From NCBI RefSeq assembly GCF_015476545.1, contig NZ_JADMKV010000010.1, forward strand, positions 1 through 64,000: a stretch of DNA of 64,000 bases. The letters are read 5' to 3'. The position numbers were made by a program, and so were the translations under genes. Origin of the DNA: Methylobacter sp. BlB1 (GTDB lineage Bacteria > Pseudomonadota > Gammaproteobacteria > Methylococcales > Methylomonadaceae). This document shows, in pieces, positions 3,633 through 39,569 of this stretch; the stretch's first letter is position 1, and each line of letters begins with the position of its first letter. The notes under the pieces are model-generated. The model worked only from the letters and a program-made list of their open reading frames with translations, searched no databases and had not been told where the DNA came from.

Positions 3633-4206
3633 CTAAATCCCAACGATCTACGATTAACTTTAATTTGACTTGATCATTTGTTACTGTGATTTTACGCGGC
3701 ATAATCTCACCTTCTGCGCGCTGCATTTCTTTGTATTCGCTATGCCATCCCGCCTGCCTGAAACCGTCACCAACTTCTTCAAATTCCCGGGAAGGCTCGG
3801 GCAACCCCACAACCCAGTACCGAAGCGAATGCACAGGCACAAAGATACCTAACTGTTGATTAATAAATTCTTCCGACCTTGCTGAAGATTCTACTTTTCC
3901 ATCTCCGCGATCAACAGTCACAAAATCGTTCACCAGCCGGATAAGCATGGCGCCCTGCCCCAACGGTCCAGATAGTTTTATTTTTTCTTCGCCAGGCTCA
4001 TGCTCCCAACTTATATTTGCGGTCCAGGAATCGTTATGCCCTGAAACAGCCAAACGCCCATCAAAAGCCCACTGTTTCAACTTATAAAGATGAGCTCTTC
4101 CAGCCTTCGAGTAATACCCGCCAGGCTCAACTGGAACAACGGAACAGGCCGACATTAATAGGGACAAACAACCACAAATAAAAAGCTTTGCTTTAAAACG
4201 TGACAC
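3613..4206 (-). CDS. lolB: Outer-membrane lipoprotein receptor LolB
   Basis: Accepts lipoproteins from periplasmic LolA and inserts them into the outer membrane. The signal peptide ends in the lipobox LMSAC, with C21 as the lipidated residue. The mature part has the WAFDGRLAVSGHNDSWTANISW strand pattern of the LolB half-barrel and ends with ITVTNDQVKLKLIVDRW. Length (197 residues) and position directly upstream of ispE and near hemA match other gammaproteobacteria. It follows a TPR lipoprotein by 2 bases. Confidence 0.93.
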   Translation of the reverse strand: MSRFKAKLFICGCLSLLMSACSVVPVEPGGYYSKAGRAHLYKLKQWAFDGRLAVSGHNDSWTANISWEHEPGEEKIKLSGPLGQGAMLIRLVNDFVTVDRGDGKVESSARSEEFINQQLGIFVPVHSLRYWVVGLPEPSREFEEVGDGFRQAGWHSEYKEMQRAEGEIMPRKITVTNDQVKLKLIVDRWDLDVAKAK

Positions 4207-4208
4207 AA

Positions 4209-5954
4209 CTATTCCGCAGTGTTTAGTACTCTTTGTTGAAAATCCAATAGATCTTCATCTTCCGGGGCATCTTTAATGGCTTTAGTAAATATTTTTCTCG
4301 CTTCAGATTTTCTATTTAAAGCCCACAAAACCTCGGCAAGATGCGCCGCTATTTCACCTTCCTGCCTTTTTGCATAGGCCTTCTGAAGGTAAAACAAGGC
4401 TTGCTCAGTATTTCCTAGCTTAAATTGCAACCATCCATAACTATCCATAATAACTGCCTCGTCCGGCTGCAGCCTAAGCGCTTTCTCCAGATATTTTTCA
4501 GCTTCAGCGTAACGATCAGTTTTTTCCGCCAAGGTATATCCTAAAGCATTTAGCGCTTCGGCATTATCAGGATCTTCAGCCAGTATTTTTTTTAGATCGA
4601 CTTCCAATATATCCAATCTGTTGAGGCGCTCAGCCATCAATGCCCGGGTATATAACAATTCTTTCTGCTCAGGCATATCGGCCAACGCATTTGTTAATAG
4701 ATTAAACGCTTGCTCATATTGCTTTTGTTGATTATACAGCTCGGCCTGAATCAGAATGAGCCGCAGCTTCTGTTTTGGAAACTGACTCCGCAAACTGTTG
4801 AGCCTGGAATTAGCTTCATCAAATTGATTATCTTTTGCAAGCAATGAAATCGCGGAAATCTCTGCATCGAGAACAAAAGGCCCATCCTTTACCTTATCAA
4901 ACCAAGCCATAGCCTTTTTCGTGTTCTTGCGTTTTTCTTCTATCTTACCCAGATAAAAGCTAGCTTGGGATTGCCACTCCGGCTGCTCCAGCAATTTTTT
5001 TAAAATATCCTCAGCCTTATTATCTCTACTTAACTGCAAATGCACCAATGCCAAGGCGAACTGGCTTTCAGCATCATTTGGATTAGCAGAAATTATGCCC
5101 TGATAAACTTCACCGGCCTCTTCATATTTTTCTGCTTTTATTAAAACCTGCGCCAATAATTTTTTAATTTTATCATTTTCCGGATACTTGGCGGCCGCCT
5201 TCTCCAGCAATTTTGCCGCAGTATTCAGATCGCCTGAAGACGCCGAGATCTGAGCCTGAAAAATCTGCGCCTTATCCCAATCAGGCTGCACATCCAAAGC
5301 TTGCTGTATTTTCGTTTTAGCCAAATCAGTATTTTTCATCTGCATGGCCAACAATGACTGTACAAAATAGACCTCAGCCTGATTTTGATGACGCAGAGAT
5401 AACGCATCCAACACATCATACAAGAAAGAGACCTTATTTTCCTTTTCCAGCGCAACCGCCAATTCCAGCATTGAATTCTCAAAACCGGCAGGATCAATTA
5501 TCAGCAATTTATCCATATGCTCAACGGCAACTTGTTTATCACCCGCTCTTAAAGCCGATAATGCAGCAATTTTTCTGGCTGTTATATTATTGGAATCTTG
5601 AGACAACCATAGGGAAACAGCCTCGTTTGTCTTATTGCTGTCTTTCATATACATAGCGATTTTTGCAGCTCTCTCAGCAAATCGCGGATCCTTGGTACGC
5701 TTGGCAGCTTCCATATAACCTTCCAGCGCAATCTCATATTGCCCTCTTTGCCCAGCAAGTTCTGCCGCCAATAACATATACATCACATCAGGATCGATCT
5801 CCGTTTTTATACTGCCGGACTGAGCTTCTCCCTTTGTTTGGGATATTTTGACAGGCTCAACAGACTCCTCCTGCGAATTAAGCTTATCCTGCGAACCAGC
5901 ACAGCCATTAAGCAAGACCAGAGTTAGCACTGAAATCAATCTAAAAATCACCAC
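4209..5954 (-). CDS. TPR-repeat lipoprotein, first gene of the lolB-ispE-prs operon
   Basis: A 581-residue protein with a lipoprotein signal peptide (lipobox LLNGC, C18) followed by an almost continuous tetratricopeptide array. Repeats such as NAEALNALGYTLAEKTDRY, AEKYLEKALRLQPDEA and ALFYLQKAYAKRQEGE are clear near the C terminus. TPR arrays bind partner proteins or scaffold envelope complexes. The exact role is unknown; homologous TPR genes often sit upstream of lolB in gammaproteobacteria. Only 2 bases separate it from lolB, so a part in lipoprotein or outer-membrane assembly is plausible but inferred. It diverges from hemA across a 299-base gap in which no consensus promoter stands out. 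Confidence 0.85.
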   Translation of the reverse strand: MVIFRLISVLTLVLLNGCAGSQDKLNSQEESVEPVKISQTKGEAQSGSIKTEIDPDVMYMLLAAELAGQRGQYEIALEGYMEAAKRTKDPRFAERAAKIAMYMKDSNKTNEAVSLWLSQDSNNITARKIAALSALRAGDKQVAVEHMDKLLIIDPAGFENSMLELAVALEKENKVSFLYDVLDALSLRHQNQAEVYFVQSLLAMQMKNTDLAKTKIQQALDVQPDWDKAQIFQAQISASSGDLNTAAKLLEKAAAKYPENDKIKKLLAQVLIKAEKYEEAGEVYQGIISANPNDAESQFALALVHLQLSRDNKAEDILKKLLEQPEWQSQASFYLGKIEEKRKNTKKAMAWFDKVKDGPFVLDAEISAISLLAKDNQFDEANSRLNSLRSQFPKQKLRLILIQAELYNQQKQYEQAFNLLTNALADMPEQKELLYTRALMAERLNRLDILEVDLKKILAEDPDNAEALNALGYTLAEKTDRYAEAEKYLEKALRLQPDEAVIMDSYGWLQFKLGNTEQALFYLQKAYAKRQEGEIAAHLAEVLWALNRKSEARKIFTKAIKDAPEDEDLLDFQQRVLNTAE

Positions 5955-23069: not shown

Positions 23070-23130
23070 GCCACGAAGACGCAGAGAAAAACGGTTGGCT
23101 CTACTATACGGGATTCTCTGCCTCTCTGGC
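23070..23130. repeat. Palindromic intergenic element, copy 1
   Basis: Left arm GCCACGAAGACGCAGAGAA (23070-23088) and right arm TTCTCTGCCTCTCTGGC (23114-23130) are imperfect inverted repeats around a 25-base loop. It fills most of the ybeD-lipB gap. It shares the CGAAG/CAGAGAA core with elements at 31371 and 39531. Confidence 0.6.
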
Positions 23131-30618: not shown

Positions 30619-31350
30619 ATGAGCTGCTCTGACAACCAAGCGTGGACCAAAGAAGAGTTTGAAGCCCAACTGCGGGGCATGGAAAGGTATTACCACATTC
30701 ATCACCCTTATCACACCCTGATGAATGAAGGCAAACTCACTAAAGAACAACTGCAAGGCTGGGTTGCCAACCGTTATTATTACCAGGTCTGCATTCCCAT
30801 TAAAGACGCCAATATTTTAGCAAACTGCCCGGACCGCGAGACACGCGCACTCTGGGTTCAGCGCATTCTGGACCATGACGGCCACCCTGGCGATCCAGGC
30901 GGCATCGAGGCTTGGATACAACTGGGCATAGCGGTCGGCTTGACGCGCGAAGAAATCACCTCGCAAAAATATGTCCTGCCAGGCGTGCGTTTTGCTGTCG
31001 ATGCCTATGTGAACTTTGCACGCAGAGCTGAATGGCATGAAGCGGCCAGCTCATCGCTGACTGAGCTGTTTGCGCCCAAAATCCATCAGCAACGCCTCGA
31101 CAATTGGCCTGAGCATTATCCCTGGGTAGAAAAAGAAGGTTATACCTATTTCCGCAAGCGCCTGACAGAAGCGCGGCGCGATGTCGAGCATGGTTTGGCA
31201 ATCACGTTGGACTGGTATAAAACCCGCGAGCAACAAGAACGCATGATCCAAATCCTGAAGTTTAAACTGGATGTGCTCTGGACCATGGCCGATGCGATGT
31301 ATATGGCCTACATTAATAATATGCCGCCATACTATAATATTGAAGCATAA
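30619..31350 (+). CDS. pqqC: Pyrroloquinoline-quinone synthase PqqC
   Basis: The cofactorless oxidase that performs the last ring closure and eight-electron oxidation to PQQ. It has 243 residues of the heme-oxygenase-like all-helical fold, with [15 protein letters not shown], the [20 protein letters not shown] helix segment and the C-terminal IYMAYINNM-like [12 protein letters not shown]. The ATG at 30619 has GAAGGT upstream; an in-frame ATG at 30598 lies inside pqqB. A palindromic element follows it. Confidence 0.97.
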
Positions 31351-31370
31351 GAGCTATTAACTTATTTTTA

Positions 31371-31423
31371 CCGCAGAAGCACAGAAAAAGCACTTAATGT
31401 TGAAAATTCTGTGTCCTCTGCGG
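31371..31423. repeat. Palindromic element inside the pqq operon, copy 2
   Basis: Left arm CCGCAGAAGCACAGAA (31371-31386) and right arm TTCTGTGTCCTCTGCGG (31407-31423) form an imperfect inverted repeat, followed by CTTTTTC. It lies between pqqC and pqqD, genes that are usually adjacent, and resembles elements at 23070 and 39531. It may act as an RNA processing or attenuation site. Confidence 0.65.
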
Positions 31424-31493
31424 CTTTTTCAGGGTAATGACGAGATAATTTCCCATTCTCCTTCTCATGACCCACCACTACCGAACGATCATA

Positions 31494-31766
31494 ATGACTA
31501 TCAATCCCGATCTCCCTTTCAAGTTTTCACCCCTACACAGATTGCAATGGGAAGAAGCCCAGCAGAAAGATGTTATTCTCTATCCGGAAGGCATGGTGGA
31601 ACTTAACCAGAGTTCTGCGGAAATACTGAAATTGTGCGACGGCACGCGCAATCTCCCCCAAATCGTAGCCGAACTGGAACAGAAATTCGCCACGACGGGT
31701 CTTACCAAAGATATCACTACTTTTCTGGAAGTCGCTTTAAAAAATGGCTGGATTCAACAAAACTAA
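31494..31766 (+). CDS. pqqD: PqqA-binding chaperone PqqD
   Basis: Binds PqqA and presents it to the radical-SAM enzyme PqqE. The 90 residues show the family pattern [23 protein letters not shown], then the winged-helix part [21 protein letters not shown] and ending [10 protein letters not shown]. The ATG at 31494 gives usual length; the frame could start at 31467. The 3' end overlaps pqqE by 23 bases, in keeping with PqqD-PqqE coupling. Confidence 0.95.
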
Positions 31767-39530: not shown

Positions 39531-39569
39531 GCCGCAAAGAATACGAGATGCTTTCGTGACCTTCGCGGC
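39531..39569. repeat. Palindromic intergenic element, copy 3
   Basis: Left arm GCCGCAAAGAATACGAGA and right arm TTTCGTGACCTTCGCGGC are degenerate inverted repeats between tldD and pmbA. The GCCGCGAAG/CACGAA core links it with the elements at 23070 and 31371. Confidence 0.5.

Follow-up and report, generated by a model that had tools for sequence, protein, structure and literature searches.

The palindrome between pqqC and pqqD of Methylobacter sp. BlB1 is probably an old, drifted and gene-less copy of a dispersed palindrome whose full form carries a GxxExxY gene, the product of which would recognise or cut the palindrome arms. An arm of this unit consists of a few heptamers in tandem, spaced at about one helical turn, and the two arms are inverted. 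The full form carries in its loop one small gene, for the putative single-domain PD-(D/E)XK nuclease GxxExxY. The nuclease would recognise the heptamers and would cut or nick the arms, possibly when these are extruded as a cruciform, and subsequent repair or copying may then spread or convert palindromes, gene-less ones included. Such a working mode would be like that of a REP element and its RAYT, but with another enzyme fold. In the pqq operon the copy most likely has no dedicated role and is tolerated as a relic.

The stretch analysed, called the window here, comprises 64,000 nucleotides of the BlB1 genome, in which NCBIfam confirms pqqB, pqqC, pqqD, pqqE, lipB, pmbA and tldD. The first-pass annotation had placed an inverted repeat between pqqC and pqqD, and this is borne out by CCGCAGAAGCACAGAA at 31371-31386 and TTCTGTGTCCTCTGCGG at 31407-31423 (Table 1); none of 100 shuffled versions of the window contains a two-arm pattern of this kind. 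As RNA, the palindrome folds with -22.7 kcal/mol on the plus strand (z -4.6) and with -27.8 kcal/mol on the minus strand (z -5.5), and on either strand 0 of 200 shuffles folded equally well. The arms are built as in the rest of the family, being inverted and made of tandem CRCRRAG-type heptamers 9-10 bp apart, here of the type CRCAGAR. The full form is not seen at this site. The 20-nt loop is free of genes and PF13366, the GxxExxY domain, has no match in the BlB1 genome, so the element is at most a gene-less member. T-rich DNA follows on the 3' side of the right arm, and a further in-frame ATG for pqqD lies at 31467. At its curated gathering cut-offs, Rfam yielded four tRNAs in the 64 kb window and nothing else.

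Table 1. Coordinates of the palindromes in the window and of the genes next to the pqq element
Feature	Positions	Strand	Remarks
pqqC, upstream neighbour	30619..31350	+	ATG at 30619; TIGR02111, 371 bits
Left arm, pqqC-pqqD palindrome	31371..31386	+	two units, CGCAGAAG + CACAGAA
Loop, pqqC-pqqD palindrome	31387..31406	no strand	20 nt, gene-free; other units have gene-bearing loops
Right arm, pqqC-pqqD palindrome	31407..31423	+	left arm inverted, plus one extra base
pqqD, downstream neighbour	31497..31766	+	likely start 31497; NF002535 and TIGR03859
Second copy, between DUF493-type gene and lipB	23071..23129	+	left arm CCACGAAGACGCAGAG
Third copy, between tldD and pmbA	39532..39568	+	

The two genes had been described as normally packed end to end, which holds for some relatives and not for the others. 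Among 80 relatives fetched by PqqC, 65 have pqqD downstream within the fetched stretch; their gap is at most 8 bp in 11 and longer in the rest, of which 13 have 30-64 bp, 3 have 140-155 bp and 38 have 477-2657 bp. Two long gaps were opened and hold DUF29 and Uma2 genes. The pqqC-pqqD spacer is thus an insertion hotspot in this clade, and with DNA entering it so frequently, a relic of an insertion fits the site. The DUF29 and Uma2 inserts, both in Methylobacter relatives, lie at 3749-4712 of locus L028 and 3818-4279 of locus L040. The same gap in a Crenothrix metagenome-assembled genome holds an unrelated palindrome, GGTGGCTAAGGACT...AGTCTTTAGCCACC (L070, 3732-3797).

Two further copies in the window had been named at 23070-23130 and 39531-39569. 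Both are real and weaker than the pqqC-pqqD palindrome: the lipB copy folds with z -3.4 (0 of 200 shuffles equally good) and the tldD-pmbA copy with z -2.2 (8 of 200). A covariance model whose training set excluded these two copies recovers both (E 0.038 and 0.025 over the 64 kb of the window), and its next-best place there has E 1.5. The lipB copy is clear in BlB1 and in G003, another genome of the genus, degenerate in M. luteus and unrecognisable in M. marinus, and a counterpart of the tldD-pmbA copy aligns in each of these four genomes. Judged by their distribution, the pqq, lipB and tldD copies are all old and predate the divergence of the genus, in part or as a whole.

That the three copies belong to a dispersed family, as first suggested, is supported by further copies in the BlB1 genome and by up to hundreds of arms in relatives. 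The genome-wide covariance-model search proposed for this purpose gave eight places at E <= 0.01 in BlB1, two of them from the training set, and 24 strand-matches at E <= 1, with a model built from 12 copies, 150 of 1677 first-look candidates scored, and E-values that are rough. When one or two mismatches were allowed, the arm pattern was no more frequent than a backward control (12 versus 19; 12 versus 11), so pattern counts alone speak against a family in BlB1, and copies are separated from noise there by folding and the covariance model only. One copy in BlB1 found by eye (contig C195; L023, 1501-1618) has in its loop a second palindrome, beginning GTAGGCTGGGTTGGC, which by eye resembles a GTAG-type REP.

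Across the family, an arm has two or three heptamers of the CRCRRAG type, which follow one another at 9-10 bp, and a strict 16-base arm pattern matches in 25 of 121 genomes of the host family, 972 times in total and up to 374 times per genome, as compared to 8 matches of its backward control over all 121. At least five arm matches occur in 21 of 249 sampled Pseudomonadota genomes. The spread is patchy: in genus g13, genome G041 has 55 matches and the six other genomes searched have 0, and genomes of genus g16 range from 7 to 374. In the copy-rich genome G044, most copies read TCA-CCACGAAGR-CACGAAG-NN-CACGAAG, then the loop and the inverse, with variable bases between units 2 and 3. Mean identity among 20 G044 copies is 0.94 in the arms, 0.57 in the loops and 0.58 in distant flanks, where the arm value is biased upward because these are the best model matches, and is approximate because some G044 copies, like most of those from M. 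marinus, were parsed one unit late. In M. marinus, 18 of 20 copies could be parsed, and most share the loop (0.77) and near flanks (0.87). The near-identical M. marinus copies (L313-L332) likely represent a recent burst. Their flanks are conserved beyond the arms, possibly as part of a larger MITE that captured a palindrome.

Comparable variation was seen elsewhere. A downstream intergenic site compared in 17 relatives holds different palindromes or none, with flanks too diverged for a duplication to be read. In one and the same spacer, at L034 5131-5245 and in L037, L055, L065, L069 and L097, the palindromes differ in sequence between species. The arms at this spacer look as if they change together with complementarity kept, as is also seen in the M. 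marinus pqq element.

Proteins annotated as GxxExxY often begin with His-Glu-rich or Thr-Lys-rich tails, and because of these tails a link between PF13366 and the repeats was put to the test. A PF13366 gene is present in 25 of 80 host-family genomes and in 33 of 249 genomes across the phylum. In M. marinus, inverted arms lie directly on both sides of the gene, whose open frame extends back through the left arm. Sixty GxxExxY loci were taken, best matches first, and 57 remained after three fragment hits were dropped. Each was scored by the best inverted repeat between its two 260-bp flanks, one on either side of the domain. Of the 57 loci, 50 exceed 12, the maximum of 80 pqqC control loci, with medians of 22.5 and 8.5, respectively. 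When one flank of the same 57 loci was reversed and not complemented, the maximum was 19.5, a value exceeded by 34 of the 57 loci. Flanks paired across different GxxExxY loci (339 cross-pairs) have a mean score of 10.4 with a tail up to 65.5, the tail being high because the loci share heptamers. The flanking repeats are mostly tandem CRC-type heptamers, which some of the seven low-scoring loci still show by eye. In named records of a plasmid collection (Bacteroidota, Gemmatimonadota, Pseudomonadota), four of eight GxxExxY loci score above 12 and four score 11-12. The M. marinus GxxExxY protein has no match at E 1e-5 in 50,697 phage records, searched for carriage by phages.

The M. marinus unit also shows an insertion polymorphism. 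About 490 bp (L139, 1425-1915), comprising the whole GxxExxY unit and 24-29 bp on each side, are absent from BlB1, M. luteus and G003. The aligned blocks overlap by seven bases. These read ATGATTA at the left end; at the right end they read ATGAATA, as does the empty site, where ATGAATA is by eye the stop/start overlap of two genes. The insert is flanked by a candidate target duplication, imperfect and in a single case. By eye, the M. marinus unit lies upstream of a gene resembling a short-chain reductase, and in a Sphingomonas plasmid record (L276, 571-999) a GxxExxY unit is directly upstream of an annotated fabG. Two other GxxExxY genes (L161, 1170-1840, in genome G119; L162, 1430-1700, in genome G084) appear by eye to be disrupted, either through a different inverted repeat or through a palindrome copy nested inside.

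Full-length units have in their loop a gene that matches GxxExxY in both libraries (TIGR04256 / PF13366 PDDEXK_3; 157 and 153 bits). An AlphaFold2 model of the protein has a mean pLDDT of 95.7 and a PD-(D/E)XK fold, and Foldseek retrieves mainly PD-(D/E)XK nucleases, with weak E-values (best 0.011). In a second structural comparison, the model aligned with Cas4 (4ic1; Z 9.8, rmsd 4.4, 100 aligned) and with Hjc (1gef; Z 7.0, rmsd 3.2, 86 aligned). The fold is thus common to GxxExxY and the Cas4-like and Hjc-like nucleases, but fold alone shows no function, identity is 15%, and the GxxExxY alignment has no invariant cysteine, whereas Cas4 is an iron-sulphur protein. Run against the sequences of solved structures, the nuclease profile reached a best E of 0.41, and the PADLOC defence families gave weak Cas4-like matches only (best E 0.0037). 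Across an alignment of 20 rows, the E of GxxExxY, D67 and K79 (the K of ExK) are invariant and E77 is nearly so. GxxExxY is thus likely a catalytically complete small nuclease.

The heptamers were mapped onto a protein tree of 55 domain sequences, with two of the 57 loci omitted as having no readable arm. The last heptamer base changes 3 times on this tree, the minimum for four states, as compared to at least 18 times in 300 shuffles. The second base requires 7 changes (shuffled minimum 12), the middle triplet 17 (21) and the whole heptamer unit 23 (37). The middle triplet gives a weaker signal among the 31 G-type rows, with 9 changes that 1 of 300 shuffles equalled. When 41 labels assigned purely automatically were used, the last base again required 3 changes (minimum of 12 in 500 shuffles), and host family changes 12 times on that tree. 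L160 and L195 come from different host families, have proteins 73.5% identical and both carry CACGAAT; L139 and L170, again from different host families and 61.2% identical, both carry CACGAAG. On this tree the arm heptamer closely matches the nuclease phylogeny across distant hosts. Co-inheritance accounts for a gene keeping its arms, and that the heptamer can still be read at such protein divergence suggests that it is recognised. Part of this tree signal would arise without binding if gene and arms were inherited together as a single stretch of DNA. The sole counter to pure co-inheritance is that the heptamers are readable while the proteins differ by 25-40%.

Arms and gene are also linked at the level of genomes. 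Among the 80 host-family genomes, the gene is present in 20 of 33 with at least three arms of either type and in 5 of 47 with fewer (p = 4e-6), a comparison in which a gene may contribute up to two matches through its own arms and in which the Fisher test, here and below, treats related genomes as independent, which kinship violates. Without the arm-richest genus, g16, the same cut gives 14 of 26 versus 5 of 47. Other cuts are weaker, with 21 of 46 versus 4 of 34 at one or more arms, 17 of 29 versus 8 of 51 at five or more, and 13 of 25 versus 12 of 55 for strict G-type arms alone (p = 0.01). All seven genomes whose gene is of the CACGAAA type have at least three CACGAAA-type arms, as do 22 of the 73 others. 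Across the 249 phylum genomes, the gene occurs in 14 of 21 with at least five arms and in 19 of 228 others (p = 2e-9); 18 of these 21 come from a single host family, however, and within that family there is no significant association (12 of 18 versus 10 of 21, p = 0.33). Seven of the 80 host-family genomes have at least 20 arms and no GxxExxY gene (G109 with 214 and G052 with 102 among them). Loss of the gene after the spread of the arms would explain such genomes, and another agent would do so too. Four gene-bearing host-family genomes have no strict arm match, including M. marinus, whose arms miss the strict pattern by one extra base.

A role of the pqqC-pqqD hairpin in the pqq mRNA, as an RNase site or an attenuator, appears improbable. 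Each of the four genomes from the genus has the element in this position, M. luteus, whose PqqC is 96% identical to that of BlB1, and M. marinus among them. Each of the four orthologues folds well (z -4.6 in BlB1, -5.2 in G003, -5.2 in M. luteus and -6.6 in M. marinus). The M. luteus arm reads CGCAGAGG + CACAGAG and the M. marinus arm has drifted; the M. marinus copy as a whole is strongly diverged, with two outer pairs changed on both sides and the inner pairs of a fixed alignment lost, another inner stem standing in their place. Pairing on the fixed alignment of the four orthologues is 82%, as compared to at most 50% with slid partners. The hairpin shape of the element has thus been kept across four species while its sequence changed. 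This persistence, the stable fold on the plus strand and the T-rich DNA behind the right arm would all suit a function in RNA, and because all orthologues fold well we hold the mRNA reading to be slightly less improbable, and the relic reading slightly less probable, than we otherwise would. Against a function in RNA, covariation on the fixed four-row alignment does not rise above shuffles (103 of 500), and the earlier proposal of an RNase site setting the pqqBC to pqqDE ratio is weak, the four orthologues being diverged though each folds well. A simple scan accepting loops of 3-8 only found no terminator-like match at the element. Among the 80 relatives fetched by PqqC, the element was seen in M. 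luteus and M. marinus and in none outside the genus, in a scan by arm type with gaps read by eye (long gaps to 120 bp) that can miss drifted copies. Template-switch correction of DNA can likewise maintain palindromes. Since in the copy-rich G044 the heptamers are fixed and the bases between them are variable and often unpaired, units bound by a protein on DNA fit better than a conserved RNA helix.

The repeat architecture itself is already known. The accessible passages of Aklujkar 2009 (PMC2700814) describe 21 paired sites of Geobacter metallireducens on opposite strands at variable distance, each made of three tandem repeats with the consensus TCTCCGTS[Y], and take them to be bound by an unidentified global regulator, which may be IHF/HU. 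Compared by description and not letter by letter, these class 2 paired sites agree in architecture with the heptamer arms, and the reverse complement of the consensus is of the CACGGAGA kind; in contrast to the units described here, those passages name no nuclease gene, and a search for the word GxxExxY did not return the paper. By extension, the palindromes could be sites of a global DNA-bending or regulatory protein (IHF/HU-like), which GxxExxY uses or on which it hitch-hikes. We regard this as unlikely. Fixed heptamers with free bases between them do resemble protein-binding sites, and several arm-rich genomes have no nuclease gene, but the patchy spread within genera (G041 against its six g13 relatives, and the range in g16), the tracking of the nuclease tree by the heptamer sequence and the insertion polymorphism of the M. 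marinus unit all speak against it. Mobilisation as REP/MITE elements by a Y1 (RAYT) transposase is far less probable still. Y1_Tnp genes are frequent in arm-rich genomes, with 22 of the 24 genomes searched having one, and the M. marinus burst, with its conserved loop and near flanks, looks MITE-like. However, when 24 of 30 fetched Y1_Tnp loci (three were too short and three were not entered) were scored as the GxxExxY loci had been, strong flanking repeats appeared at 6 of the 24, and none of the 24 best repeats consisted of CRCRRAG units. Neither arm of the window element has a GTAG/CGTC tag beside it on either strand, BlB1 has no Y1_Tnp match, and genome G348 has 54 arm matches and no Y1_Tnp match. 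On the repeats at the 24 loci and on BlB1 and G348, RAYT was rejected as the agent.

REPtrons and TIRtrons are the closest working analogue of the GxxExxY family. As set out in the accessible passages of Di Nocera et al. 2013 (PMC3733652), they consist of REP or TIR repeats with a RAYT or TIRYT transposase, and the gene has possibly been lost in some carriers. Common to both are dispersed short repeats and a rarer gene flanked by the same repeat. They differ in that REPtrons and TIRtrons encode an HUH tyrosine transposase, whereas the units here combine a PD-(D/E)XK nuclease with tandem-heptamer arms and have no GTAG/CGTC tag. Three motif strings of the heptamer-arm family are absent from the main text of PMC3733652. 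The library entries for GxxExxY (TIGR04256 / PF13366) give the name and describe no flanking repeats. In the literature searched, which included the accessible passages of PMC8934634 and PMC12085832 and had subscription papers and supplements outside its scope, there was no description of repeats flanking GxxExxY, no published link of these repeats to it, no relevant match to the arm motif strings and no match for pqqC-pqqD palindromes. As far as these searches reach, the link to the nuclease is new.

Many of the genomes searched have their intergenic space filled by dispersed palindromes of this type, which have elsewhere been read as regulatory sites. If GxxExxY is their partner, unexplained repeats would gain a testable agent, and the flanks of each nuclease gene would reveal its likely substrate; the match of heptamer to protein would amount to a natural table of nuclease specificities for testing. 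Intergenic hairpins such as that of the pqq operon would then be judged as possible relics of mobile elements before an RNA switch is sought. More tentatively, GxxExxY and its heptamer palindromes may be a widespread form of selfish DNA whose spread needs neither transposase nor integrase: the nuclease would recognise and cut its own arms, or gene-less palindromes, and break repair or conversion would do the rest. If true, such DNA would leave fields of gene-less palindromes behind as a footprint, in the way of homing endonucleases and their sites.
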